This document shows, piece after piece, positions 27,846 through 44,218 of a stretch of 64,000 nucleotides of DNA. Every line of letters starts with the position of its first letter. The stretch's first letter is position 1. The DNA is taken from positions 3,644,272 through 3,708,271 of the forward strand of contig NZ_CM001775.1 in assembly GCF_000332235.1 (NCBI RefSeq), written 5' to 3'. The notes under the pieces were generated by a model. That model made no database searches. It was given only the letters and a program-made list of their open reading frames with translations, and was not told the DNA's origin. Origin of the DNA: Geminocystis herdmanii PCC 6308 (GTDB taxonomy: Bacteria > Cyanobacteriota > Cyanobacteriia > Cyanobacteriales > Cyanobacteriaceae). The translations under genes and the position numbers were made by a program.

Positions 27846-29296
27846 ATTTACGTCCCCTTACGGGGTAAAGATAGAGTTTAACCCCAAAAAGGATCAAAGA
27901 GCATTTATACTCATTACCTACAGAGAGTTTCCGTCCCCTTACGGGGTAATGGTGGAGTTTAACATGAAGAGGATTCTTGCTATGTCTTCTATGGTGACAA
28001 GTTTCCGTCCCCTTACGGGGTAATGGTGGAGTTTAACCTATGACCAATTAGCACAAGAATCCCTAATCCCTACTGCAAGGTTTCCGTCCCCTTACGGGGT
28101 AATGGTGGAGTTTAACGGAGCTAAGTGCAGAGTTTGGGTTAACACCTTCTCGAGTTTCCGTCCCCTTACGGGGTAATGGTGGAGTTTAACGAATCATTCT
28201 ATTTCGCTCTTGCCCTTGAAGAAAATGTTTCCGTCCCCTTACGGGGTAATGGTGGAGTTTAACATGGCTTATCGCTATTTTCGGGGCTTCTTTCCAAACA
28301 ATGGTTTCCGTCCCCTTACGGGGTAATGGTGGAGTTTAACACGAATAAGATAGCCGTTAATCCGTTGCCCTAAAAGTTTCCGTCCCCTTACGGGGTAATG
28401 GTGGAGTTTAACTGGTTCTGCTTTAGTGGTGGGCGATCGCTGGTGGAAGGTTTCCGTCCCCTTACGGGGTAATGGTGGAGTTTAACTATGAAAAAGACCC
28501 AGATCATATGGCTTATACAATCGGGATGTTACGTTTCCGTCCCCTTACGGGGTAATGGTGGAGTTTAACTTTGAAAAGGTTAAAACAATTAAGGGCATAA
28601 ACAAAGAAGAAACACGTTTCCGTCCCCTTACGGGGTAATGGTGGAGTTTAACATAAGAGTAGTTTATTAAAAAAGAACAATGATTGATTTAAGTTTCCGT
28701 CCCCTTACGGGGTAATGGTGGAGTTTAACCATTTTTTACCTTCCTGATCATTTTCAATAAACCCTTAAGTTTCCGTCCCCTTACGGGGTAATGGTGGAGT
28801 TTAACAACCAACCGATCCAACAACGTTGGTATGGGGGGCGTTTCCGTCCCCTTACGGGGTAATGGTGGAGTTTAACACCATCATCCCGTGGCAGGTGTCG
28901 AGCTGGTCGCACGTCTTCAGTTTCCGTCCCCTTACGGGGTAATGGTGGAGTTTAACCCGGGCAGGACGTCGGCATGACGAACTCCCGCACCGCTGCCTCG
29001 TCGCGCAGGTTTCCGTCCCCTTACGGGGTAATGGTGGAGTTTAACCCGGCTTCGACGGCGAGTGGCTGGTGGTCGCCAACCCCGACGTCGTCTGGTCACC
29101 CGGGTTTCCGTCCCCTTACGGGGTAATGGTGGAGTTTAACCCAAAAAGCATCCCTCGCACCAGAGATAACTAGAGGTTGGGCAAGGTTTCCGTCCCCTTA
29201 CGGGGTAATGGTGGAGTTTAACCCCGTCGAGCGGGCCGTGGTCGCCAACGCGGAGGTGCGTTTCCGTCCCCTTACGGGGTAATGGTGGAGTTTAAC
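27846..29296 (-). CRISPR. CRISPR array 1: 19 repeats of 37 nt, 18 spacers
   Basis: The repeat on the plus strand begins GTTTCCGTCCCCTTACGGGG and ends TAATGGTGGAGTTTAAC; CCCC-TTAC-GGGG forms the stem. Spacers are 34-58 nt. The array is read on the minus strand: the repeat then ends in GGACGGAAAC, a type III-like 5' tag, and the leader shared with array 2 lies at the right. The repeat at the left end (27846) is degenerate and carries the TAAAGAT variant. Spacers 14-16 and 18, close to the leader, are strongly GC-rich; the older ones are AT-rich. Confidence 0.97.
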
Positions 29297-29552
29297 CCTA
29301 CCCTTGGAAACCGTTGCCCTACCTTGCTTGTACAAGATGTCTGCGAGAAACTACAGTTTTACACTTTACATTTCTTAACATTATTAAGTTGTCAAGGTAA
29401 AGAAGCTCTTTTAAGGACAAAAACTGAGGTTAACTCAAATATCAGAGTGAATCTGCACAAAAAAATTAACTTATCTCGTTGTTTATCTTTTAAACTCTCT
29501 GTTACTATTATTTGCTAACTGCGACAGATTGACAAGTAAACTTTACATTTCT
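29297..29552 (-). promoter_or_regulatory. CRISPR leader 1
   Basis: 256 bp between the newest repeat of array 1 and the cas2 stop codon. It is nearly identical to 42702-42957 beside array 2, with only scattered substitutions (for example GAGGTTAAC versus GACGTTAAC, and ATTGACAAGTAAAC versus ATTGACAAGTTAAC). It should hold the array promoter and integration signals. An open frame across it has no coding character. Confidence 0.85.
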
Positions 29553-29843
29553 TTACAAAATAAGATAGTCGGGAGATTCATAGGGAGGGTTGTCTTTGAC
29601 TCCATAAATTTTTGTTTTTTGCTTTGCTGAGGCATCGAGGGGATAAATCCGCAGACTATCCTCCTGTAAATTCAACACTTTTAGCCATCGGGTAGATAGG
29701 AGATGTTCTAATTTTTTTGTATCTAAAGGGCATTCAAACACGGAATATTGCACTCTTTCGCAGTGTTGCTCTAATAATTTCGCCAGTTGAGTACGTCTTT
29801 TGTCGTCTCGTACGTCATAACAAATTAGCCAAAGTTTAATCAT
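29553..29843 (-). CDS. cas2: CRISPR-associated endonuclease Cas2
   Basis: 96 residues of ferredoxin fold. WLICYDVRDDKRRTQLAKLL includes the conserved early Asp, and RVQYSVFECPLDTKKLEHL follows. Cas2 dimerises with Cas1 dimers in the spacer-integration complex. It lies downstream of cas1 on the same strand. A hairpin repeat separates the two genes. A decayed copy of its 3' end is found at 42958-43052. Confidence 0.95.
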   Translation of the reverse strand: MIKLWLICYDVRDDKRRTQLAKLLEQHCERVQYSVFECPLDTKKLEHLLSTRWLKVLNLQEDSLRIYPLDASAKQKTKIYGVKDNPPYESPDYLIL

Positions 29844-29928: not shown

Positions 29929-30936
29929 TTATTTAACGAAAAAGGGTTCATAGTCTAAACTTGATTCTAGTAAACATCGGGCTAACATTCGGGCTTGTTC
30001 GAGAAATATTTGATTGAGTTTCAGTTTACGATTTTGAGGAGGATATAATAAGTATTGGTTCATCCTTTCTTCTAATTCTCGTAATAATAATTTTTTGGCG
30101 GTAATGCCTAGCCAGATTCCCTCTCCATCAGGGGAAGGTTGAAAATCAGCTATGTCTAAGGTGTGGGATTGAATGAGGGAAATAACCGCATAATCCACTA
30201 AAACGGGGCGAAATTCCTCCATCAAATCTAAAACTAGGTTGGGGCGATAGGGTTGTATGGAATGAAAAAAGCCTAAATAGGGATCTAATCCAGCTTTGAC
30301 ACAGACGGCGAAAATACGGGCTAATAAAACGCCATAACCCCAACTGAGTAAGGCGTTGATGGGATCTTTGGGAGGACGACGATTTCTACCGTTGAATTGC
30401 CATTGGCTAGGGAAAAAGTGTTGTAAGGCTTGATAATAGTTTCTGGCGGAAATTCCTTCAATACCCATTAATTCGTCTCTGGTTAGGGGAGTAGTAATGT
30501 TTTTCAGTTGTAGTTGATAAGCATTGATGGTGTCTATGGATTCTGATAATTGAGGGATTTTTCCTTTGGTTGCTCGATTTTTGATTTGTAATAATGAACG
30601 TTGATTGCGAATTTTACCGTAGGCGAATTTTTGGGCAAATCCTAAACCGAAGGATGTTTCTACGGTGCGATATTGTGCTAGACGAATGAGGGGATTGGAG
30701 GCAAAACCGCTTTGTAATCTTCCTCGAAATTGTCCATCTTGTCTGAGGAAAATGGCTTCTATACCTTGATCTAATAAAATAGCAATGACGACATCGGTTA
30801 ATTGTACGCCGGGTAATACTACGACTAATTCTAACTCACTAAGACGACAAGTATAGGTGTTATTTTTTTTGATGGTAAAGGTTTGATTTTTATAGTGTAC
30901 TTTTGTACCGGGTTCGGTTAAATATAGGGCTGTCAT
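29929..30936 (-). CDS. cas1: CRISPR-associated endonuclease/integrase Cas1
   Basis: 335 residues. The metal-binding triad is present: Glu160 in LMGIEGISARNYYQ, His225 in GFFHSIQPYRPNLVLDLMEEF, and the acidic pair Glu240/Glu241 in the same block. The N-terminal beta domain (TALYLTEPGTKVHYKN) is complete. No reverse-transcriptase domain is fused and none is nearby, so spacers should be taken from DNA. It acts with the adjacent Cas2. Confidence 0.97.
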   Translation of the reverse strand: MTALYLTEPGTKVHYKNQTFTIKKNNTYTCRLSELELVVVLPGVQLTDVVIAILLDQGIEAIFLRQDGQFRGRLQSGFASNPLIRLAQYRTVETSFGLGFAQKFAYGKIRNQRSLLQIKNRATKGKIPQLSESIDTINAYQLQLKNITTPLTRDELMGIEGISARNYYQALQHFFPSQWQFNGRNRRPPKDPINALLSWGYGVLLARIFAVCVKAGLDPYLGFFHSIQPYRPNLVLDLMEEFRPVLVDYAVISLIQSHTLDIADFQPSPDGEGIWLGITAKKLLLRELEERMNQYLLYPPQNRKLKLNQIFLEQARMLARCLLESSLDYEPFFVK

Positions 30937-31381: not shown

Positions 31382-32605
31382 TTAAGTTAGGTGAAGTTGC
31401 GGAAATAAATCCGCTAAAATTTGCGGTAATTTTTGGGCGTATTGATGTAAAATTTTACTAGAAAATTGTTCAGCATTCATTTGACAATGGGCGATATTAT
31501 TTCTATTTCTTCCTAATTGTGACCAAGTATCATCTAGTTGTTTAATATCGGCAACGTGTTTAGTTATTTTTTGCTCATAAAGTTTGAGTCGATCGGGATT
31601 ATTCCCACTAATAGCGTTTAGTTGATTTTCGATATTTTTCCGCTCATCTTTATCTAAATAATTGGTATTTTCTAAGATGGCTAAAGTTGTTACTAACCAT
31701 TCTCTTGACAATAAAATTGCTTGAGTGCCTAAGCCTTTTTCTACATACCATTTGATTAATAAGTAGTGTTTTTTGATGATTAGTTGATAGTCTGATTCGG
31801 CGGATTTTTCGATGGCAAATTGGGCGTAATCTTGTTCAATTTTATCGATAATTAGTTCAAAGGGTTTGGCAAAAATACCAACTTCTTCTCTTATTTCTTT
31901 CCCTGACATTCTTTTAAGTTTCTGGGCGGATTCTAACAATTCTACGGGGCGAATAAACTCTATATTTTCTGAAATAGTTGCGATCGCACTGCCAAAATTT
32001 CTTAATTTGTTGGGTTTTATTTCTTCTTTTTTAGCTTTACCTGATTTGAAAAAATCTATCTGAATATCTGCTAATAATTGTCCTAATTTTTGCGATGATC
32101 CCGTATTAATAAATGTATCGGTAGCGGTTAACCAATCTAGTAGTTTAATGGCTGGGGTTAAGTCAAATATAGGGGATTCATTTTTTTCTTTGTTATATTG
32201 TCCATAATAAACGCCTTTTATGTTTACATTTCGGGCTTTTTCGAGGAAGGCGGCGGCGAGTAAAACAATGACGGGGATCGATCGAAAAGCATGAGTAATA
32301 TCAAAGATAATTTCGCTATCTTTTTCCACTGATTCTACTACTTTATCAAATAACTTCCATAGATCATCTTCTTCTGTACCTGATGGTATCTCAATATAAG
32401 ATAATTTAAATTTATTATTGATTTTATTTCTTAGTTGCTCTCCATGAGCTTTTGTTGCTTCTTTAGTAGTAAAAACTTTAATTTCTTTTACCTTCATAAA
32501 AGATGCGATCGCTTCTATAACATATTCAGTTTCATACTGTTGATCTTGCCATGTATAGGAGGTTAATTCGTATTTGCCAGTACCGAGAAAACTTAGTAAA
32601 ATCAT
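31382..32605 (-). CDS. csx1: Csx1/Csx2-like CARF-HEPN effector
   Basis: 407 residues. The N-terminal CARF domain begins MILLSFLGTGKY and contains the DxTHG-type motif DITHAFRSIP (102-111), as in the TIGR02221 (Csx2) group. The C-terminal HEPN domain has the RNase motif RNNIAH (Arg368, His373). Such proteins bind cyclic oligoadenylate made by Cas10 and then cleave RNA non-specifically. The Cas10 gene in this operon keeps GGDD, so the signalling pair is complete. Confidence 0.88.
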   Translation of the reverse strand: MILLSFLGTGKYELTSYTWQDQQYETEYVIEAIASFMKVKEIKVFTTKEATKAHGEQLRNKINNKFKLSYIEIPSGTEEDDLWKLFDKVVESVEKDSEIIFDITHAFRSIPVIVLLAAAFLEKARNVNIKGVYYGQYNKEKNESPIFDLTPAIKLLDWLTATDTFINTGSSQKLGQLLADIQIDFFKSGKAKKEEIKPNKLRNFGSAIATISENIEFIRPVELLESAQKLKRMSGKEIREEVGIFAKPFELIIDKIEQDYAQFAIEKSAESDYQLIIKKHYLLIKWYVEKGLGTQAILLSREWLVTTLAILENTNYLDKDERKNIENQLNAISGNNPDRLKLYEQKITKHVADIKQLDDTWSQLGRNRNNIAHCQMNAEQFSSKILHQYAQKLPQILADLFPQLHLT

Positions 32606-32789: not shown

Positions 32790-33719
32790 CTAAAATAAAT
32801 GTCCTAAACGCTCTCTTAATTCTCGTATGGCTTCTTCTAAATGTCTTTCATTATAGCCTGTTGTTTCGATCGAAACTCCCATTGTATTATTTTCATCTTG
32901 GTATAAATAAAGCCAAAAAATATAACAATTATTTTGAGTTTTATAGTTAGATAATTTAAAATTATTACGAGGAGCAGAAAAGGCTTTTTTATCGAAATAA
33001 ACGTTATCAATCCAAGGAATTTCTGAAAGAATTTTTTTAGCTTTATTCCATGTTCTAGGGCGATGATGTTGTACCCCTTCTTGAAGATTAAAAATATCGT
33101 TTCTATTCCTTGTAGAATGGGGTAATTCTGCCTTATAATTACCATAACTCACTTTACCATCAGACGATAAAAAAGGAAGGTAAATTAAGCTCTTATACTG
33201 CTCATGAATATAGCAAACAGGCACTTGATAAATATTTCCTGCCAATGCCATAATCATCGATTCAGCTTTAAATCCTCCCGTTGCCGCAAGGGTGACATTG
33301 CCTTTGGCATTTTTGATTAATTCGGCTAGTAAATTAGCCATTTTTTCTAGGATATTACCATTAACATCTATCTCATAATTAACCTCTGGTATTTGTATAA
33401 TTTCAACGTCTTTTTGACCTAATTCAGTGAAAAATAAACGTAAAATTTTAGCACATTCTTCTCCTGATTTAGTGGCGGAGTGTAATAAAATTATCTCATC
33501 TTTTTCTTGTAAATTGAGATGAAAAAATGTGTTAGTTTCCGCACTAATTAAATCTAAATCTGTGGCTTTCATCCATGCGATCGCACCTTCGATATTTTCG
33601 ATTACTAATTCATTGCTAAAAGTATTTTTGTTATGCCAAGGGCGTTTTTTGTCAGGTGTTAAGTTAATATCTTTATTAGTTCTTAAAGATGTACCTACTG
33701 TCATGATAATTGTTTCCAT
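32790..33719 (-). CDS. Crn1-like CARF protein (putative ring nuclease) with extra C-terminal domain
   Basis: 309 residues. The first ~190 form a CARF domain of the APE2256/Crn1 type. The beta-1 loop is TVGTSLR with Ser11, and the beta-6 loop is ATGGFKAE with Lys151; these match the ligand-handling Ser and Lys of Crn1 ring nucleases. Residues ~200-309 form a distinct domain (RPRTWNKAKKILSEIPWIDN, VSIETTGYNERHLEEAIREL) that I cannot name. The likely role is degradation of cyclic tetra-adenylate to shut off the neighbouring HEPN effector. An alternative is a second cOA-activated effector through its unknown C-terminal domain. Confidence 0.7.
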   Translation of the reverse strand: METIIMTVGTSLRTNKDINLTPDKKRPWHNKNTFSNELVIENIEGAIAWMKATDLDLISAETNTFFHLNLQEKDEIILLHSATKSGEECAKILRLFFTELGQKDVEIIQIPEVNYEIDVNGNILEKMANLLAELIKNAKGNVTLAATGGFKAESMIMALAGNIYQVPVCYIHEQYKSLIYLPFLSSDGKVSYGNYKAELPHSTRNRNDIFNLQEGVQHHRPRTWNKAKKILSEIPWIDNVYFDKKAFSAPRNNFKLSNYKTQNNCYIFWLYLYQDENNTMGVSIETTGYNERHLEEAIRELRERLGHLF

Positions 33720-33736
33720 AATGATAGTATTTAAGA

Positions 33737-34504
33737 TTAATTAAAAGTAGTTAAAAATGTGTTACCCATACCTAAACGAGTTTTTATGCCCGTACCACAA
33801 TAATCAGCATAATGAATTAAAAGATTAGCGACATTAGCTAATAAATCATCAATTTTTAAGGGAATTTTGAGCTTAATTTCGCCTGTAAACCCCGTTATTT
33901 TTTGTTGACTGATATAATGTTGACGACTATATAAACGATAATAATTAAGATAAATATTTTCTGATAAATATTGTGTTAATTCGTCTCCACCTAAATAAAT
34001 ATTGCAAAAATAATTCCATTTATCTAACCAACTACGAAACATTAAACTAGGGATAGGTAAAGGTAATTTTGTTTTGCCTTGGGCGAAGGAAGTAGGGCTT
34101 AAAAATTGAATATTATATTCCTTAATTCCTTGGGGATCATTTGCTACTAAATTACTATATAATTCTTCATAAGAAGTTATCTGATTTTCTCTATTAATTA
34201 TTTCAAAATTCACTCCTAAAAAGTCTAAAGATGAATTTAACTGTAAATTTTTAATGGCATGACTAGCATTAGTTTCTAAACCAGATAATGAAAAATAATA
34301 TTCTTCATCGGGAGATAAACAGTAAAAATCTCCTTCCTTTTTATAGTTGCCAATTATCCCCGAAAAAGTTATCTCAGGAATAGCAATATTGACAAAATCT
34401 AAGTACATTTTTTGATATAAATTTTTAACCAAAACCACATTATAAGCACAAGGTAATAGGGTTAATTTATTTACTTTTAATGTCCATTTTGATTTGATTA
34501 ACAT
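33737..34504 (-). CDS. cas6: Divergent Cas6-family RAMP protein
   Basis: 255 residues. The C-terminal RAMP of Cas6 is clear: FLSPTSF, KITGFTGEIKLKI and the glycine-rich loop YCGTGIKTRLGMGNT. All are shared with the second Cas6 at 43073. The N-terminal RAMP is shortened. The segment that in the other Cas6 reads GLHAWFLDQV...ARLHD-like, with histidines, is here LVKNLYQKM without His. It may process crRNA with different catalytic residues or be a binding-only paralogue. It follows csm5 in the operon. Confidence 0.8.
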   Translation of the reverse strand: MLIKSKWTLKVNKLTLLPCAYNVVLVKNLYQKMYLDFVNIAIPEITFSGIIGNYKKEGDFYCLSPDEEYYFSLSGLETNASHAIKNLQLNSSLDFLGVNFEIINRENQITSYEELYSNLVANDPQGIKEYNIQFLSPTSFAQGKTKLPLPIPSLMFRSWLDKWNYFCNIYLGGDELTQYLSENIYLNYYRLYSRQHYISQQKITGFTGEIKLKIPLKIDDLLANVANLLIHYADYCGTGIKTRLGMGNTFLTTFN

Positions 34505-34572: not shown

Positions 34573-35847
34573 TTAAATAATTTTTAACTTTGCCCAACCC
34601 GGTATATAACGAATATCTGCCTCACGATTAAGGATGGTGCGACGGGATTTTGGTGCTTGAAAATTAGGGGCTTTTAAACCACAAGTATCTCTTATTTCGC
34701 CTCTTAAATCATCATCGATTAACCAATTAATTGTCGTACCTCCCATACCAGTACCCCATCCTAATCTTAGTTGATAAGGACATTTTTCTTCTTCATAAAA
34801 ATTTCTAATTAACTCAAAATCTAAGTCTTTTCCTTGATGTTTATTATCGTTAATATTATTCCAATAATCATATTCTCCATCCCATTGAGTTTGACTAAAT
34901 TCCTGACAAATGTTCATTAATTCTTCCAAATTATTAAAGGGTAATCTCATATTCTGATTATGGTTAAACCAAGATAACATTTCTAAGTCAAGATTAATCG
35001 TAAATTCAGTACGCACATTAAATATCATTTCTGTATATAAGGAGGCTTTATATTTAGCATTATTATCTTGAAAATGACTGGAAACAATTACTTCGGTGGT
35101 AACAGGAATATTATAAGTTTTGCTTTTTCCTGTTTTTTTATTAGGTATTTTTTCCTCTAGTAATGGTAAAGAATCACTAATATTTAAAGCTCTTAAAAAG
35201 TCGGTATTGGGTCCTGTTCTTGGGTTATAATTTTTATTGTTATATTTGAGGGAAAAATTCTCAAATAAATCGCTCATAAATAGTCTATCATCGGCAAATT
35301 TTGCTTGTCTTCTTAATTCTCCATTATCGATTTTTTCTCTTAATCGGGCTTCTATTTGACTAATTCTTATGGGAGTATTATAGGTTTCTTGATGTTTTAA
35401 TAAGAAAAATGCGATCGAACTTCTGATTGCACCTTTAATACTACTACCGGGTATATAAGGCTCACCAAAACCGTTGCGAATCATAGGGCGTAAGTCAGTA
35501 ATTTTACCATCAACCCATTTACGACTAATACCAATAGGGGGAAAAATCAGATTACCGTAATCATCGGTTAAATTATGCCAATTTTCGTCAATATCGTCTA
35601 AAAGGGGTTTAATATCTTCTTTATCTTCGATTTTTTGGATATACTGGTGTAATTTACCCCTCTGTAGTAAAACTCTGGCTAAGGCTTCCTGATTAGGCAA
35701 ATAAACCTTGCTTGATGTCTGTATATATTCATAGGGATTAAGTTGAGAGACAGCGCCACCAATTCTTAAAATGGGGGTGGTTAAACGTATCTTGGCGGTT
35801 TGATAGTTTTTGGTGAAGGTTAGGGGTTGTAAAGTGGTTGTAGTCAT
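34573..35847 (-). CDS. csm5: Type III-A RAMP protein Csm5
   Basis: 424 residues. RLTTPILRIGGAVSQLNPYEY starts the first RAMP, EPYIPGSSIKGAIRSSIAFFLL is the family motif, and a C-terminal glycine loop reads LGWGTGMGGTTINW. Csm5 caps the 3' end of the crRNA in the Csm complex and helps recruit trimming nucleases. It is 5 bp downstream of csm4, so the two are translated from one mRNA. Confidence 0.92.
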   Translation of the reverse strand: MTTTTLQPLTFTKNYQTAKIRLTTPILRIGGAVSQLNPYEYIQTSSKVYLPNQEALARVLLQRGKLHQYIQKIEDKEDIKPLLDDIDENWHNLTDDYGNLIFPPIGISRKWVDGKITDLRPMIRNGFGEPYIPGSSIKGAIRSSIAFFLLKHQETYNTPIRISQIEARLREKIDNGELRRQAKFADDRLFMSDLFENFSLKYNNKNYNPRTGPNTDFLRALNISDSLPLLEEKIPNKKTGKSKTYNIPVTTEVIVSSHFQDNNAKYKASLYTEMIFNVRTEFTINLDLEMLSWFNHNQNMRLPFNNLEELMNICQEFSQTQWDGEYDYWNNINDNKHQGKDLDFELIRNFYEEEKCPYQLRLGWGTGMGGTTINWLIDDDLRGEIRDTCGLKAPNFQAPKSRRTILNREADIRYIPGWAKLKII

Positions 35848-35852
35848 AATTA

Positions 35853-36929
35853 CTAGGATATAGACGTTAGTTGGGCTTGAATCGGTAAAGATAGGCTGAT
35901 ACCGCTACGATAGACTGTGTGAACTTTTTTGAAGTCAAGAGGGGTTACATCTGCTAATTCCCCTTGAGGCATAGACGAAAAGACTGAACCTTCTGTAAAC
36001 ATTCGTATCATTTTCCGCCTTAATTGTCTTCCCGAAAAAGGTGAGGCTATCCATCCTCCTCTTTCTTGTATTTCGTAATAGCTTTGAGCGGTAATTTCTG
36101 AATAAATAGAGGAATCCCAAAATAGACTCATTAAACTGTAAAAATCACCACTATTAAAATGAATAATTTCTTGCCATTGTAAGGGTAATTCTAACCATTC
36201 AGGAGTAAATCTTCCTGCACCACTTGATCTTTCTCCGCCTATTCCTTCTTCTGCTAAAAGGTGTAAAGCGGCACATATTTTTATCTCTAATTCTTTAGTA
36301 TTTTCGTCAAAATTAATCAGAAAATATAAGCCTGAATATTCTTGATCATTTTCATAATTGTACTGGACAAAACCTGTATGATAAAAGTTTGTACTGCTAT
36401 CATTTCGATCGACTGCCACTTTCGGAAATTTCTGAATATTAAAGTTATTTTGATAATCAAATAATCCCTGTTGATGTAAATATTGAGTATCTATTTTTTT
36501 TGCTTGAGTTTTGTCGATTAACTCCTGTTGATCTTTTTGAGTAAAACCTTCTTTTTGATACCATTTTTGCCAAATTATCAAGGGTAAATATTTGATTTTT
36601 TTATAGGTTTTAGTAAAATCTAAATCATTGCCTACAGGATAATTTTGCGGAAATAATAAAGGTTTTGGTAAATAATAAGTAAATCTATCGTTATTCCTTC
36701 GATAAATAAAAGTAGAACTATGACGAAATAAAGTAGGATTTTGATTAAGTTGAGTCAATAAATCTTCTACTTCTTTTTTTCCGAATAAACGGGCGTAGGA
36801 GATAATTAAGGCACTAAAGAGAGTATCTGATTTAACTCTTTCTTGAGTTTCTTCTAAGCCAATACCTACCTCGCCAAAATGGGCTAAGTGTTTACCAAAA
36901 TTGAGATGAATGAGTTTCCAATTAGACAT
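35853..36929 (-). CDS. csm4: Type III-A RAMP protein Csm4
   Basis: 358 residues. The start WKLIHLNFGKHLAHFGEVGIGLEET resembles the Csm4 RAMP and DTLFSALI the conserved following helix. The glycine-rich loop is GIGGERSSGAGRFTPEWLEL. Csm4 binds the crRNA 5' tag and contacts Cas10 at the base of the complex. It lies between csm3 and csm5. Confidence 0.92.
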   Translation of the reverse strand: MSNWKLIHLNFGKHLAHFGEVGIGLEETQERVKSDTLFSALIISYARLFGKKEVEDLLTQLNQNPTLFRHSSTFIYRRNNDRFTYYLPKPLLFPQNYPVGNDLDFTKTYKKIKYLPLIIWQKWYQKEGFTQKDQQELIDKTQAKKIDTQYLHQQGLFDYQNNFNIQKFPKVAVDRNDSSTNFYHTGFVQYNYENDQEYSGLYFLINFDENTKELEIKICAALHLLAEEGIGGERSSGAGRFTPEWLELPLQWQEIIHFNSGDFYSLMSLFWDSSIYSEITAQSYYEIQERGGWIASPFSGRQLRRKMIRMFTEGSVFSSMPQGELADVTPLDFKKVHTVYRSGISLSLPIQAQLTSIS

Positions 36930-36999: not shown

Positions 37000-37950
37000 C
37001 TAATTTTGTCTTGGATTTAATAATCCTTTTACTTCTTGAAATCTCTCTAATAAATTGTCTGTATTGCCAATATTATCAAGGAGAGATTGATCATCTTTTT
37101 GCCCTAAAATCGCTTGACGATAAAAGTCGAGGGTGCGATATTTTATGTTAAAGTTAGTAAAGTCTATTTTGCCGTATCCCCTCGAACCATGCCCCCCTAG
37201 AGCATCATCTTCTAAAATTTTAAGGGCGATGGCAAGGTTGCCTAAATCTTGTTCAACTTGGGTTTCGTCTTCTACGGTATAAACCATTTCAAACTCAAAC
37301 ATAGCACCAGCAGGTACACGCTCTAGTTGACGAGGGTTGGCGGCGGAGGTAACTCGATCGATGCCATTTTCAAATTTCCACTCAGTCATATATAAGCCAG
37401 TGTCGATACTTTGTAAACGTTGAGCTGAATCTGCTTTTAAATGGGCATCTCTGACGATTAATCGAGCGCTGTAATTTCGCCCTTTGATTTTGACGTATTC
37501 TTTACCCTCGATGGTTTTTGTCGTCTTATAATCGAGTTGTTGACTATCGGCAACGGTTTTTTCAATCCAACAATCCTTCCCCGTTGAGCCAAAAACTCTA
37601 CTTAATTCGCAGGTTTTCGCCCCTTGAAACAAGACTAAATTACCTTGCACATCACTATAACCAGTTTCTACATCATCACTTTCATAACGGTATGTACCAC
37701 TTCCTCCCGAACGGTTGAGGGGTTTATTCAACATTCTTTCTAAGAGCGATCGCAATTTTCCCTTAATGGATGAACCGGGTAAATATGGTTGTAAAGTAAT
37801 AGGATCTCGAATCACTGGTTTATCTAAACCGCCTATATCAAGGTTTTCTGCACCGCCTCCGATATGTAGTCCAGTCTTAACAACAATGTCACTTTTGATG
37901 ATAATTTTACCTAATAAATTTCTTTGGGGTTTGTTGATAACTTGTGCCAT
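37000..37950 (-). CDS. csm3: Type III-A backbone RNase Csm3
   Basis: 316 residues. LHIGGGAENLDIGGLDKPVI contains Asp43, which corresponds to the catalytic Asp33 of the well-studied Streptococcus thermophilus Csm3. YLPGSSIKGKLRSLLER, RLIVRDAHL, NPRQLERVPAG and GGHGSRGYGKI follow. The protein is longer than most Csm3 (about 220-260). Extra sequence sits around residues 75-160, before RLIVRDA, with cysteines. Each Csm3 subunit cuts target RNA at 6-nt steps, so RNA interference should be functional. Confidence 0.95.
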   Translation of the reverse strand: MAQVINKPQRNLLGKIIIKSDIVVKTGLHIGGGAENLDIGGLDKPVIRDPITLQPYLPGSSIKGKLRSLLERMLNKPLNRSGGSGTYRYESDDVETGYSDVQGNLVLFQGAKTCELSRVFGSTGKDCWIEKTVADSQQLDYKTTKTIEGKEYVKIKGRNYSARLIVRDAHLKADSAQRLQSIDTGLYMTEWKFENGIDRVTSAANPRQLERVPAGAMFEFEMVYTVEDETQVEQDLGNLAIALKILEDDALGGHGSRGYGKIDFTNFNIKYRTLDFYRQAILGQKDDQSLLDNIGNTDNLLERFQEVKGLLNPRQN

Positions 37951-37953
37951 GAT

Positions 37954-38367
37954 TTATTTTCCTCCTGCGGCTTTATGATAGGCAATGATAGACTCGATAA
38001 ATTGAACTAAACGATCGAAATCATCTAAGGATTGAACCTTGTCGATGACTTGTGCCATAACGTCACTTAAGGGTTTAGCGGCATCCACCCTAGCGGCGGC
38101 GTAGGCTAATTTGGGCTTAAGCAAGACAATTTCAGGTTCAACTAATTGAAATAAATCTGTTTCACTCTTGTTTTCTCCTCCTTGAGTTAGTTTAACTTTG
38201 AGACGATTAATTGCGTCTAAAAACTTGCGAATTTGGTTAGTTTCTAAACGTTGATTTTTTAAAAATCTTCCAAATTCTTCTGAATGATTAACTAAATCTC
38301 GGATAGGATACTCTTTAAATGTTTTTGCTTGTTTTAAAGAATTTAAAATTGCTTCTTTGCTATTCAT
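37954..38367 (-). CDS. csm2: Type III-A small subunit Csm2
   Basis: 137 residues, all helical. LVNHSEEFGRFLKNQRLETNQIRKFLDAI and LLKPKLAYAAAR are the Csm2 signatures. Csm2 forms the second filament of the complex and contacts the target RNA. It stops 3 bp before csm3. Confidence 0.9.
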   Translation of the reverse strand: MNSKEAILNSLKQAKTFKEYPIRDLVNHSEEFGRFLKNQRLETNQIRKFLDAINRLKVKLTQGGENKSETDLFQLVEPEIVLLKPKLAYAAARVDAAKPLSDVMAQVIDKVQSLDDFDRLVQFIESIIAYHKAAGGK

Positions 38368-39065: not shown

Positions 39066-41315
39066 TTATGATGAACGATTTAATAACTCTAACCAAGTTG
39101 CGATCGCACTGTAATAACGAGCATTGTAAGGACTTTTCAAAGAACTTTTAATAGGTTCAAATTGTGGATTATTTTGAATATGACTAGGCAATCTAGCCAA
39201 AGTATAAGCTATTTTTGGTAAGTGTAAAAAATATTTGACATCATCAATTTCTTGAGGATAAGTAAGAGTTGCTTTTTTCTTTTCTACTTCTTTAATTTTC
39301 TGTTCTTGTATTTTAGCAGTTGCCAATAAATTTTGAACAAAATTGCGAGAATAGCTATCTTTTATGTTTTGTAAAGCATCGACAAAAGGCTTAACACCGA
39401 ATAAACTTAAAGAAACATTACCCCCTAAATATTCCCTCAAATTATCATCTATTTCTAACTGATTAACATTAATATTTTCTTTCCCTAACCATTCTTCCCA
39501 CTTAAAAACTTCCCCAAATAAACCTAAACTATCTCTACCATTTCCCTTAGCTTTTTCTTCCGCTTCTCCCGACTCATTAGCAGATTGATAGAGAGGGTAT
39601 TTTGCCCCTGCAAAACTAATTCCTGCCGATAAAGTAACGCTAGAATTATAACCCGTATATTCTCGAAAAGATTCATAAATTTGAAAGGCAAAGTCTATCA
39701 CTTCATCCCAAACACCGCTAATAAATAAATCATCTCCTCCTGCATAAATAAATAGTAAATTATAATTTTTTTCCGTTGCTAAAGTATTCAAATAAACCTT
39801 GAAAAAATAAGTCATTTGACGGGATAAACTAGCTAAACGAGGTAAGTTTAATTTCTCAGCTAAACCTTGAGCAAAAATTTTACCTAAATTGTCAACATCC
39901 ATGCGTAAATAAGCAACCCTCGCAATTTTGCCCGATTTTCTGGCAATTTCCGTCATTTCACTGGCAGACATAAAACCTGATTCATTTTCTAACTCAGTTT
40001 TTTTGCCATAGTTACCTAGTAAAATAGGCTTAATTTTCTCCTCTTTATAGTTAGCTAAATCCCAATTATTAATTAGAAAAATTGTCTCTGCATTATCCAC
40101 AGATAAAGCCTTATTTATACTCTCATAAAGATAATATTCATAACCGGGTAAAACAATTTTATTCACCCTTTCGGTTCGATCGAATGTTCTATTTTTAGCT
40201 CTTTTTACTCGTACGATCGCCTTAACTTTAAATAAACGACTGCCCAACTCAAACATCGTGCGACACACCCAACAAGCGGAGGAAGAATCGAGATTATGGG
40301 GATTTAATGGTTTTAATTTTACTTGATCATCTCGATGGCAAACTTGGCAAGATTCATAACTAGGTTTTGGGGCTAAAAAATCTCTGATTTGATTACTAAA
40401 TTTTTGTTGTTTCTGACTTCCTAATTTTTGAGGAATTTTCTGCCAATATTGGGATAATTGATCACTACTTAAACTATCCACAGGTAAAGTTACATAGTCT
40501 AAAGCTAAAAACATTTTACCCTGATAACTTTTGCTAAACCAATCATTAAAACGAGCTTTAATAACATTACTTATTCTTTGATTTTCTTCATGATTATCAT
40601 TCGTTAAAATATAAAGATTTCCTCCTCCAGCATAAATGATATTAGTGGGAGGTAAATTTAATTCTGTTAATAATTGTTGAGTTATTTCTGCGGTAACTAA
40701 TTCAAGGAAAAAACTTCTTGCGCGTAAAGATTTTAATGCACCATCGGCAGAAATTGTATAGATAAAATTTTGAATACCTGATAAATCCCCACCTATTAAA
40801 CCGATGTTATCAGCAGAAGGATTATTATTTAAACTAACAGCTATCATTGCTAGAGATTTAATGAAATCACTATAAGCAATATCATTTTCCCCATAACTAA
40901 TGTGAGATCCAATTTTTTCTAAACATAAATTTAATAAAGATAAATTGCTTAAATCTTCATGGTTAAAATTACTAATTATCTCTTTTACCTGCGTTTTAAA
41001 ATCAGCCATTTCAGGAATATTTAATACAGGTGAAGGAAGAATCGGAAAACTATTTTTGAGAACAATAGATGGTGAATAATGAGTTTTTTCTTGTGATTTA
41101 TAATTCTGAATATGAATAGAATCAAACAGTAAATTTAAAGGTTTAAATTCTGATTCTTCTTTCCATGAAATAATCTCTTTAGCCTTGATAATTGACTGGT
41201 GTTGTATCAATGGTAACGAAGGAAAATCTAACTCTAGCCACTGGGCTAATTTTTTTATCCCTTCTTGTAAAACTGAAAGGGCAATCTGATGATTTGTTAC
41301 TTCTGTATTATTCAT
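39066..41315 (-). CDS. cas10: Cas10/Csm1 with intact cyclase palm but degenerate HD domain
   Basis: 749 residues. The active palm motif YAGGDDLF (GGDD 526-529) should make cyclic oligoadenylate. A zinc ribbon lies between (Cys323/326 and Cys348/351), and the first palm contains GGDLSGIQNFIY (175-186). The N-terminal HD nuclease is degenerate. Where LLHDIGK is expected the sequence is SVLQEGIK (14-21), and where the YDH motif is expected it is AYSDFIKSLAM (147-157). No HD copy lies upstream. The ssDNA cleavage activity is therefore probably absent. Confidence 0.95.
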   Translation of the reverse strand: MNNTEVTNHQIALSVLQEGIKKLAQWLELDFPSLPLIQHQSIIKAKEIISWKEESEFKPLNLLFDSIHIQNYKSQEKTHYSPSIVLKNSFPILPSPVLNIPEMADFKTQVKEIISNFNHEDLSNLSLLNLCLEKIGSHISYGENDIAYSDFIKSLAMIAVSLNNNPSADNIGLIGGDLSGIQNFIYTISADGALKSLRARSFFLELVTAEITQQLLTELNLPPTNIIYAGGGNLYILTNDNHEENQRISNVIKARFNDWFSKSYQGKMFLALDYVTLPVDSLSSDQLSQYWQKIPQKLGSQKQQKFSNQIRDFLAPKPSYESCQVCHRDDQVKLKPLNPHNLDSSSACWVCRTMFELGSRLFKVKAIVRVKRAKNRTFDRTERVNKIVLPGYEYYLYESINKALSVDNAETIFLINNWDLANYKEEKIKPILLGNYGKKTELENESGFMSASEMTEIARKSGKIARVAYLRMDVDNLGKIFAQGLAEKLNLPRLASLSRQMTYFFKVYLNTLATEKNYNLLFIYAGGDDLFISGVWDEVIDFAFQIYESFREYTGYNSSVTLSAGISFAGAKYPLYQSANESGEAEEKAKGNGRDSLGLFGEVFKWEEWLGKENINVNQLEIDDNLREYLGGNVSLSLFGVKPFVDALQNIKDSYSRNFVQNLLATAKIQEQKIKEVEKKKATLTYPQEIDDVKYFLHLPKIAYTLARLPSHIQNNPQFEPIKSSLKSPYNARYYSAIATWLELLNRSS

Positions 41316-41514: not shown

Positions 41515-42701
41515 GTTTTCATCCCCTTACGGGGTAATGGTGGAGTTTAACAATCTTCAAGGAAGATGCCTATACCATTGACACTACTGCGGTGTTTCCG
41601 TCCCCTTACGGGGTAAAGATGGAGTTTAACTATGATGAAAGAATCACCGACTTGTACGAATACATGAAGTTTCCGTCCCCTTACGGGGTAAAGATGGAGT
41701 TTAACCCTTGATCTTTTCTGGGATATGGGATATAATAGATAGTTTCCGTCCCCTTACGGGGTAAAGATGGAGTTTAACCCGGCGCTGCTCGCCCGCCTGC
41801 TCGAGATCCCCTCCGTTTCCGTCCCCTTACGGGGTAAAGATGGAGTTTAACGCCAGCGGGTGCGGATCGAGGTCCGACAGGTTCGTCAAGTTTCCGTCCC
41901 CTTACGGGGTAAAGATGGAGTTTAACGCGCACCTCGTGCTCTACCCGATGGGCGTGCTCGGCGTTTCCGTCCCCTTACGGGGTAAAGATGGAGTTTAACC
42001 CCCGTCTCCGAGGTCATCAGCCAGGCACTGCCCTGGTTTCCGTCCCCTTACGGGGTAAAGATGGAGTTTAACCCCTGCATGAGCGCGTAGTCCTTCGCGT
42101 TGGTGGCATCCAGTTTCCGTCCCCTTACGGGGTAAAGATGGAGTTTAACTCTCGTACTTCTCGCTGGTCTTCAGCGAGCTGGCGCCCAAGGTTTCCGTCC
42201 CCTTACGGGGTAAAGATGGAGTTTAACCCGGCCTCTACCCGCTGGCGACCGTCGCGCTGTGCCTGCGTTTCCGTCCCCTTACGGGGTAAAGATGGAGTTT
42301 AACAGCACGGACCGACCTGCACCACGACGGGCGTCCCGCAGGCGTTTCCGTCCCCTTACGGGGTAAAGATGGAGTTTAACCTCGTCGTCGCCGACGCCAA
42401 GGACAAGGCCGTCAAGGCCGCCGCCCGCCGTTTCCGTCCCCTTACGGGGTAAAGATGGAGTTTAACCACCCCCAGTGGTGACACGAGTCCGCTGAGGGTG
42501 GGGAGTTTCCGTCCCCTTACGGGGTAAAGATGGAGTTTAACCGGCCGGGTCGAGACGAACAGCACCGTGCCGTCGGCGGCGAAGACCGGGTTTCCGTCCC
42601 CTTACGGGGTAAAGATGGAGTTTAACCCTGACGTTCCTCGGCTCTTGGAACAACTTCCTGTGGCGTTTCCGTCCCCTTACGGGGTAAAGATGGAGTTTAA
42701 C
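41515..42701 (-). CRISPR. CRISPR array 2: 16 repeats of 37 nt, 15 spacers
   Basis: The repeat begins GTTTCCGTCCCCTTACGGGG and ends TAAAGATGGAGTTTAAC, differing from array 1 at the TAATGG/TAAAGA site. The left-most repeat (41515, GTTTTCATCC...) is degenerate and has the TAATGG form of array 1. The leader is at the right, so transcription is leftward. Spacers 1-3 are AT-rich; spacers 4-15 are all GC-rich, most near or above 60% G+C. Spacer length is about 36-49 nt. Confidence 0.97.
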
Positions 42702-42957
42702 CCTACCCTTGGAAACCGTTGCCCTACCTTGCTTGTACAAGATGTCTGCGAGAAACTACAGTTTTACACTTTACATTTCTTAACATTATTAAGTTGTCAA
42801 GGTAAAGAAGCTCTTTTAAGAACAAAAACTGACGTTAACTCAAATATCAGAGTGAATCTGCACAAAAAAATTAACTTATCTCGTTATTTATCTTTTAAAC
42901 TCTCTGTTACTATTATTTGCTAACTGCGACAAATTGACAAGTTAACTTAACATTTCT
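42702..42957 (-). promoter_or_regulatory. CRISPR leader 2
   Basis: 256 bp, the same length as leader 1 and almost identical to it, ending exactly where the cas2 stop codon would stand. It is divergent to the Cas6-HTH gene that starts about 115 bp further right. Confidence 0.85.
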
Positions 42958-43072: not shown

Positions 43073-44218
43073 TTGTTTGTGAATATAACATTATCGCCAT
43101 TAGGAAACTTAGACTGGACAAATAATAGTGATTTAGTTATTCTCGAATTTGAGTTAATAGCAGAGAAAGACTATCATCTATCGTTAGACTATAGTAAAGG
43201 ATTACACGCTTGGTTTTTAGATCAAGTACGACAATTATCGCCAGAATTATCAAAAAGACTTCACGATTATCCCGAAGAAAAAGCCTTTAGTATTTCTCGT
43301 TTAGAGGGTAATTTAATAGCGTTAAAAAATAAGATTTTTGTCAAGCAAAATAGTTTTTATAGTTGGTATTTGTCGATTTTCTCCTGCGAATTAATCCAAT
43401 GGTTAAAGGAATGGTTTAATAATTTTCCTTCCCATTTAGCTTTATATCACACCCCATTATTAATTAATGAAGTTAGGTTTTTTTCTCCTCCAACTACCTA
43501 TGAAAAGTTATGGCAGGAAAACATAGAAACTAATTTTTGTTTTACTTTTCTTTCCCCTACCAGTTTTCGCCGTAATAATCATCACTATCCTTTACCTCAT
43601 CCCCCTAATTTATTTCACAGTTACTTGAGACGATGGAATCAATTTTCCCACAAGGTATTTTCTCAGGATGATTTTGGTGATTGGATTGATAAATTTGTAA
43701 TTATTCGTGGGTATTGTCTGGAGTCAAAAAAGGTGGCTGGAGGGAAAAAAGGTAGCGTGACGGGGTTTATGGGGTGGTTAGAGTTATCTTTAGGGCATAA
43801 TTACCAAGATTATCCCGATTTTACTCAACTTTACTCGACTTTATGCCGATTTGCTACTTATTGCGGTACAGGACATAAAACTACTTTTGGTTTAGGGCAT
43901 ACTATACTTAGTAAGGGAAATGAAAATACTGATGAGGGGAGGCAACAGATATTTACCCAAGCGTCAAATTATAATAACGACTGTCTCGAAGATAAGTTAG
44001 TTACTAGAATCGATGAGTTAACAGGTATTTTTCTCAAACAGAAAAATGGAAAAGGGGGAAATCGTGCAGAAAATGTTTGTCTTAGTTATGCTAATATTCT
44101 TGCTAGAAGGGAGTTGGGAATGGCTTTGAAGGATATTTCGATCGAGCTTGAAATGCCTTATGAAACGGTGAAAACTTACTCAAAAAGGGCAAAAAAACTT
44201 TTAATTAACGGTAGTTAG
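43073..44218 (+). CDS. cas6: Cas6 endoribonuclease with C-terminal helix-turn-helix
   Basis: 381 residues. The N-terminal RAMP is canonical (GLHAWFLDQVRQLSPELSKR then LHDYPEEKAFSISRLEG, with the usual His residues). The C-terminal RAMP has FLSPTSF, VTGFMGWLEL and YCGTGHKTTFGLGHT. After about residue 285 there is a linker and an HTH resembling sigma-70 region 4/LuxR (ARRELGMALKDISIELEMPYETVKTYSKRAKKLL). The start is TTG 43073 or GTG 43079. It should cut the repeat RNA; the HTH may bind the adjacent leader or its own promoter. Confidence 0.85.
   Translation: MFVNITLSPLGNLDWTNNSDLVILEFELIAEKDYHLSLDYSKGLHAWFLDQVRQLSPELSKRLHDYPEEKAFSISRLEGNLIALKNKIFVKQNSFYSWYLSIFSCELIQWLKEWFNNFPSHLALYHTPLLINEVRFFSPPTTYEKLWQENIETNFCFTFLSPTSFRRNNHHYPLPHPPNLFHSYLRRWNQFSHKVFSQDDFGDWIDKFVIIRGYCLESKKVAGGKKGSVTGFMGWLELSLGHNYQDYPDFTQLYSTLCRFATYCGTGHKTTFGLGHTILSKGNENTDEGRQQIFTQASNYNNDCLEDKLVTRIDELTGIFLKQKNGKGGNRAENVCLSYANILARRELGMALKDISIELEMPYETVKTYSKRAKKLLINGS

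Follow-up and report, generated by a model that had tools for sequence, protein, structure and literature searches.

Most of the GC-rich newest spacers in two CRISPR arrays of a cyanobacterium match chromosomal genes of Actinomycetota

Introduction

CRISPR arrays are usually read as virus histories. Turgeman-Grott et al. reportedly described in 2019 that, during inter-species mating of haloarchaea, chromosomal DNA of the other species becomes spacers. In such mating, related archaea exchange DNA by cell fusion, as described in the passages available from one source (PMC12814878). The locus reported here, from the cyanobacterium Geminocystis herdmanii PCC 6308, differs in that it is assigned to type III-A on its gene content, involves unrelated phyla, and is without known mating. 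In a further case, Esser et al. are said to have found in 2023, for Ca. Altiarchaeum and Ca. Huberiarchaeum, that host CRISPR spacers are directed against the genome of a co-occurring cell, and to have predicted a CRISPR-mediated symbiosis. The present locus is like that case, as reported, in having spacers against the genome of another cell; unlike it, the present case is known from sequence alone, and a mix of target strands (see below) gives no sign of selected targeting. Ca. Huberiarchaeum is an episymbiont that lives on its host, according to the passages available from PMC12133352.

Among archaeal spacers are matches to the housekeeping genes of cells other than the host, mostly without viral genes nearby, and transduction, conjugation, or transformation have been proposed as routes by which such chromosomal spacers arise, as stated in the passages available from Brodt, Lurie-Weinberger, and Gophna (2011; PMC3285040). 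In the same passages, the matches are usually within the family, with ten non-archaeal matches, of which nine are eukaryotic and one is bacterial; within archaea, one match alone crosses orders. The locus examined here is like the archaeal case, as far as those passages describe it, in that spacers match chromosomal genes of other cells, and unlike it in that a consecutive block of spacers crosses bacterial phyla, from Cyanobacteria to Actinomycetota (PMC3285040). Among the titles and abstracts listed from the open-licence PMC literature, none described spacers from an actinobacterial chromosome in an array of a cyanobacterium. Chromosomal spacers are already known in archaea; to the best of the authors' knowledge, a consecutive block that crosses phyla in a cyanobacterium is new.

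The newest part of the two arrays seems to be a record not of viruses but of chromosomal DNA from distantly related, soil-type bacteria of another phylum, and would then preserve, in the manner of a fossil record, the movement of DNA between phyla. If this is true, arrays can log the entry of DNA from another phylum that leaves no other genomic trace, which raises the questions of how such DNA is delivered and whether type III adaptation prefers it. It would also be a warning that the linking of spacers to a "phage host" can mislead when the source is the chromosome of a neighbor.

The CRISPR-Cas locus

The window, i.e., the whole stretch of 64,000 nucleotides that was analyzed, has a G+C content of 35.7%, close to the one-third that the first-pass annotation had given for host DNA, and belongs to a genome assembled as one contig of 4,263,418 bases (99.98% complete, 0.02% contaminated). 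Within the window, a cas locus sits between two CRISPR arrays, whose 37-nt repeats are closely related to each other, and another cas6-like gene lies past array 2. The features are as follows:

27846..29296, minus strand: CRISPR array 1, 19 repeats and 18 spacers
29297..29552, minus strand: leader of array 1, 256 nt, 97.7% identical to the leader of array 2
29553..29843, minus strand: cas2 (PF09827)
29929..30936, minus strand: cas1, 335 aa (PF01867 as sole Pfam match)
31382..32605, minus strand: Csx1/Csm6-type CARF-HEPN effector (PADLOC; without a Pfam match)
32790..33719, minus strand: CARF7-family protein (PADLOC, Pfam)
33737..34504, minus strand: cas6 (PADLOC, Pfam)
34573-35847, minus strand: csm5 (PADLOC)
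35853-36929, minus strand: csm4 (PADLOC)
37000-37950, minus strand: csm3 (PADLOC)
37954-38367, minus strand: csm2 (PADLOC)
39066..41315, minus strand: cas10/csm1 (PADLOC, Pfam)
41515..42701, minus strand: CRISPR array 2, 16 repeats and 15 spacers (crRNA strand taken to be minus from the leader at the right)
42702..42957, minus strand: leader of array 2, 256 nt, 97.7% identical to the leader of array 1
43073..44218, plus strand: second cas6-like gene, adjoining array 2 (PF10040)

All five members of the type III-A set (Cas10/Csm1, Csm2, Csm3, Csm4, and Csm5) were recognized by PADLOC, with Pfam support from Cas10, Csm4, and RAMP domains, and the locus also encodes a CARF-HEPN ancillary ribonuclease (Csm6/Csx1) and Cas6 (both by PADLOC, Cas6 also by Pfam). 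Judged by this gene content, the system is a type III-A (Csm) CRISPR-Cas system. An insertion is present in the cas operon, a Uma2-family gene (PF05685, 38495-39052) with csm2 on one side and cas10 on the other.

The Cas1-Cas2 adaptation module is co-located, cas1 and cas2 adjoining array 1, and Cas1 has a single match in the whole genome. Given the 97.7% identity of the leaders, the same adaptation complex probably feeds both arrays. When up to 3 mismatches are allowed, the genome holds 35 copies of the repeat, every one of them within arrays 1 and 2, and 39 relatives hold none (among 40 genomes searched, the strain's own was the sole match). An origin of spacers from RNA via an RT-Cas1 fusion was ruled out for this strain, whose Cas1 of 335 aa carries PF01867 only; no reverse-transcriptase family was among the Pfam matches of the cas-locus proteins scanned. 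In relatives, Cas1 matches at five loci (L108, L101, L114, L113, and L111) lie in open frames of 567-739 aa, which leaves room for fusions such as RT-Cas1.

Spacer G+C content by position

Degenerate repeats at the left ends of both arrays, together with a near-identical leader that abuts the right ends, indicate that the right is the newest end in both, as the first-pass annotation had held. Spacers are numbered here from the oldest end of array 1 (A1s1 to A1s18) and of array 2 (A2s1 to A2s15), and all 33 are distinct. The G+C contents in array 2, from A2s1 to A2s15, are 43, 34, 33, 78, 66, 72, 69, 62, 61, 77, 75, 76, 68, 75, and 58%. In array 1, they are 18-57% for A1s1 to A1s12, 56% for A1s13, 60, 73, and 72% for A1s14 to A1s16, 51% for A1s17, and 78% for A1s18. 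The spacers that delimit the change are as follows:

28877..29103, no strand assigned: array 1 spacers 14-16, GC-rich; s15 ligA-like, s16 glycosyltransferase-like, s14 a weak match without a gene
29141..29185, no strand assigned: array 1 spacer 17, self-derived
29223..29259, no strand assigned: array 1 spacer 18, the newest, 78% G+C; RsgA GTPase-like gene
41552..41741, no strand assigned: array 2 spacers 1-3, the oldest, AT-rich (33-43% by G+C count)
41779..42664, no strand assigned: array 2 spacers 4-15, GC-rich (58-78%); most with actinobacterial chromosomal matches, s13 with none, s4 and s12 with weak ones

If the order were random, array 2 would have its 12 GC-rich spacers in precisely the last 12 places with p = 1/455, and array 1 would have its four as far to the right as observed with p = 0.0023. 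It should be noted that A2s15 has a G+C content of 57.9%, so a script with a 58% cut-off counted 11 rather than 12 GC-rich spacers; the value of 1/455 refers to 12. Rank correlation of G+C content with position is weaker (rho = 0.51, p = 0.03 for array 1; rho = 0.39, p = 0.15 for array 2) because the change is a step and not a slope. Among segments of 36-48 nt sampled from the window, 0.7-1.4% reach a G+C content of 58% or more. For comparison, 875 spacers were collected from arrays in 19 loci around cas1 of relatives with an array finder that discarded candidates with short or mostly repeated spacers. In the same family, 9 of 476 spacers have a G+C content of at least 57.5%, in runs of no more than 2; in other families of the order, 47 of 399 spacers do, in runs of no more than 3. 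One relative (G009; loci L127 and L128) carries isolated GC-rich spacers of 58-73%.

The first-pass annotation had described three AT-rich spacers followed by twelve GC-rich ones in array 2 and a change at the same end of array 1 (s1-12 versus s14, 15, 16, and 18), and had argued against chance; the composition bears out both arrays, with the correction that A1s13 and A1s17 are intermediate and that A1s17 is self-derived, and the order statistics and the comparator runs of no more than 3 likewise speak against chance. Its further claim of an ordered change in time in both arrays stands as far as leader polarity, the sole basis of the time order, goes, and has to be amended for array 1, where the newest block includes one host-derived spacer.

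Matches in actinobacterial genomes

Of the 16 GC-rich spacers, 15 (all except A2s13) have at least one of six frames with a third-position G+C content of 92% or more. A wobble-degenerate pattern built on A2s9 matched four stretches in a one-genome-per-species collection, all of them in Frankiales/Frankineae metagenome-assembled genomes (MAGs). One of these four genomes, AVDCRST_MAG07 (G042; the genome of stretch L034), belongs to a family of 24 genomes, and contiguous stretches of the arrays were used as queries against the four genomes and then against this family. At E≤1e-4, 10 of the 16 GC-rich spacers match the Frankiales-related G042 family: A1s15, A1s16, and A1s18 from array 1, and A2s5, A2s6, A2s9, A2s10, A2s11, A2s12, and A2s14 from array 2, with A2s12 the weakest of the ten. 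The best match is 93% identical over 56 nt (E=7e-17), and A1s14 and A2s4 reach E values of about 2e-4. A match to the array 2 stretch was found in 15 of the 24 genomes (E≤1e-4) and to the array 1 stretch in 23 of the 24 (E of 1e-3), and a reversed array 2 stretch, used as a control, matched 0 of 24 at E≤1e-3. In G042 alone, nine GC-rich spacers match on seven contigs with 81-92% ungapped identity, and for all nine, reversed and codon-shuffled versions score worse in 118 kb of G042 stretches that were chosen for holding matches; the seven other GC-rich spacers, including A2s12, score no better than the controls in those 118 kb.

For 14 spacers (A1s14 and A2s13 omitted), mismatches were counted by codon position at whichever locus, among all genomes fetched, matched best. 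They number 18, 13, and 41 at the first, second, and third positions, and the encoded residues agree in 165 of 188 cases, which overall indicates orthologous genes under selection rather than chance composition; the third-position excess is missing in A2s4 (0 at the third position) and A2s12 (3/4/3). Most of the GC-rich spacers match chromosomal genes of another organism as orthologs, mostly at 81-97% identity, and not as the exact source, and a perfect match was absent from every genome searched. The proposal of the first-pass annotation that the source of new spacers had become a high-GC genome in both arrays is supported by these matches, which point to actinobacterial chromosomal DNA, most likely of one Frankiales-related lineage. 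A2s13 (42467-42504) is GC-rich but hairpin-like in appearance; none of its frames has a high G+C content at third positions, no match to it was found, and it is possibly intergenic DNA of the same source.

Targeted genes

As judged from the annotation of the matched loci, the targets are mostly chromosomal genes. In array 1, A1s15 matches an NAD-dependent DNA ligase gene (ligA), A1s16 a glycosyltransferase 2 (GT2) gene, and A1s18 the gene of an RsgA GTPase (rsgA), and the frame tested at the A1s14 match had no Pfam match. In array 2, the targets encode an M48 peptidase (A2s5), an alpha/beta hydrolase (A2s6), a CNNM/CorC protein (A2s9), an Na/H exchanger (A2s10), a nucleoside phosphorylase (A2s11), a PD40-repeat, S9-peptidase-like protein (A2s14), a carbohydrate ABC permease (A2s15, by annotation on an Arthrobacter plasmid) and, less surely, a histidine kinase (A2s4) and an M17 aminopeptidase (A2s12). 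The array neighbors A2s7 and A2s8 match one dipeptide-type ABC permease gene at sites about 0.58 kb apart, which hints that a single incoming fragment gave more than one spacer; the identity of A2s7 is only 78%. In G042, the protospacers of A1s18 and A2s11 are 2.1 kb apart and those of A2s6 and A2s9 about 15 kb. A clustering of protospacers on fragments was considered and found to be weak, and the linkage was not seen to be conserved in the stretches fetched from other members of the family.

Nine spacers are in sense and five in antisense orientation to the target among the 14 assigned (p = 0.42 in this small sample). The crRNAs thus show no bias toward binding of target mRNA, and the mix of strands, as would be expected without selection on the target strand, gives no sign that the spacers were selected for it.

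Origin of the GC-rich spacers

The reading to which we give a probability of about 0.72 is that the DNA sampled by the type III-A system shifted to an actinobacterial chromosome, most likely that of one unsampled Frankiales-like species. One Cas1-Cas2 pair would serve two arrays with a common leader, and the DNA reaching it would have changed from AT-rich sources to actinobacterial chromosomal DNA, most likely of a single species in or near the Frankiales-related family. Both arrays would have received protospacers from genes scattered over that chromosome, with either strand in use, and the host's own chromosome would have been sampled once. The DNA presumably entered as linear chromosomal fragments, for which natural transformation would be the first guess because many cyanobacteria are competent, followed by generalized transduction, vesicles, or contact transfer. 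Sampling would have proceeded without selection for useful immunity, Cas1-Cas2 taking whatever DNA was accessible.

That the spacers instead came from several actinobacteria of the habitat or culture, as environmental DNA, and not from one species, is possible but rather unlikely. In its favor, the best matches of A2s4, A2s8, A2s10, A2s14 (a short one), and A2s15 lie outside the G042 family: A2s8 is matched at 95% in G169 and G211 and A2s15 at 92-97%, neither having a match within the family at 1e-4; A2s10 is matched at 95% in G516, better than within the family; G270 matches A2s4 at 97% over 30 nt, and G094 matches A2s14 over 27 of 27 nt. A2s15 is moreover 94.7% identical to the carbohydrate ABC permease gene on the Arthrobacter plasmid. 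These outside matches, however, are mostly short stretches or fall in widely conserved genes, and a single MAG, G042, matches nine of the 16 spacers. In samples of the class, 394 genomes per array with two candidates scored per genome, so that counts are lower bounds, at least 56 genomes (array 2) and at least 26 (array 1) had a match at 1e-5, most of those for array 2 being to A2s12 and A2s15, which fall within coding sequence that is repetitive or widely conserved. In the array 1 sample, G042 was the best of the 394 (5.8e-14 versus 6.7e-10 for the next) and, with two candidates scored per genome, the sole one with two matches; for array 2, the lowest E values were those of G169 and G211 (both A2s8), with G042 third, and G194, G286, G378, and G403 also had two matches each. 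A search of 101 genomes of the order found four matches in G042, two in its relative G060, and one in each of ten others. Less likely again is that the order reflects retention, chromosomal spacers being acquired at all times and lost with age so that they are visible only near the leader. Virus-matching spacers of archaea are enriched away from the leader and selective retention was proposed, in the passages available from PMC3285040, but neither end of the comparator arrays from the same family carries a GC-rich block, and array 2 passes sharply from AT-rich to GC-rich spacers.

A direct source in a mobile element of high G+C content (a phage, a plasmid, or an integrative element) with actinobacterial genes on it, the spacers being ordinary immunity against such elements, appears distinctly improbable, even if mobile elements are the usual source of spacers. 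Against 50,697 phage records, matches were weak only, for example in the regions of A2s12 and A2s14 and over 30 nt mostly within A2s9, with best E values of 2e-2 for the GC-rich stretch of array 2 and 3e-2 for that of array 1; no GC-rich spacer matched a cyanophage in the searches made, the kind of match that the first-pass annotation had set against its own reading. Exact or wobble patterns from five of the 16 GC-rich spacers (A2s9, A2s13, A1s14, A2s10, and A1s16) had 0 matches in IMG/VR. Three of eight target proteins (ligase, CNNM, and glycosyltransferase) match PHROGs families that phages also carry, so these three alone would not exclude phage, while five of the eight have no PHROGs match. 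The targets are nevertheless chromosomal genes by annotation (ligA, rsgA, the Na/H exchanger) and are spread over seven contigs of G042. Among the plasmid matches listed, the strongest is that of A2s15 to the Arthrobacter permease gene (E=3e-6), and the others are actinobacterial, proteobacterial, and Deinococcus matches, mostly weak; Synechocystis records match one 43-nt piece (E 0.9), and Nostoc, Pseudanabaena, and Phormidium records match in many pieces or over repeats, without an annotated gene, and are read as CRISPR arrays. The source of the AT-rich spacers was not found either: A1s1 to A1s13 reached a best E of 1 against phage, patterns from A1s9, A2s2, and A2s1 had 0 matches in IMG/VR, and plasmids were also searched. 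An assembly artefact or contamination within the arrays is the least credible alternative, to the point of being very improbable; repeats are hard to assemble, but the genome is one nearly complete contig with 0.02% contamination, every GC-rich spacer is flanked by intact repeats, and the repeat is confined to the two arrays.

Beyond the preferred reading of one Frankiales-like source, a more speculative scenario, which we hold as doubtful though not far-fetched, is lasting close contact with one actinobacterium in a biofilm, in a crust, or as an attached partner, whose chromosome would be received piecemeal and repeatedly. The arrays would then be a time-ordered, gene-by-gene log of inter-phylum DNA flow, in which neighboring spacers stem from one incoming fragment, and might also act as an immunity barrier to the partner. 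The name of G042 (AVDCRST) suggests the Avdat biocrust study (PMC7901476), the label itself being absent from the main text in the passages available from that source. Going by this name, the G042 family may live in cyanobacteria-dominated crusts.

The self-derived spacer and minor features of the arrays

Of the five newest spacers in array 1, A1s17 (29141-29185) alone is not GC-rich. The strain's own chromosome (C1:2388028-2388071) matches it at 44 of 45 nt. The protospacer is inside a gene of 605 aa with Proton_antipo domains, an NADH-dehydrogenase-type subunit. From the orientation of the array, the crRNA of A1s17 would be in the sense of this mRNA and would not target it, and a type III system that depends on transcription should tolerate a spacer of mRNA sense, so that tolerance of A1s17 is expected. 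Host DNA as the source of the GC-rich block was considered and rejected: searched against the strain's own genome, array 1 matches only itself, array 2, the A1s17 protospacer, and 18 nt at E 0.4.

The leader-distal degenerate repeats (27846-27882 and 41515-41551) each carry the variant letters of the other array (AAAGAT, array 1; TAATGG, array 2), a swap that suggests an old recombination or duplication between the arrays. On the strand displayed, 9 of the 17 newest spacers (the 16 GC-rich spacers and the self-derived one) start with CC, as against 2 of the 16 others, a bias that may reflect either an adaptation motif or simply the composition.
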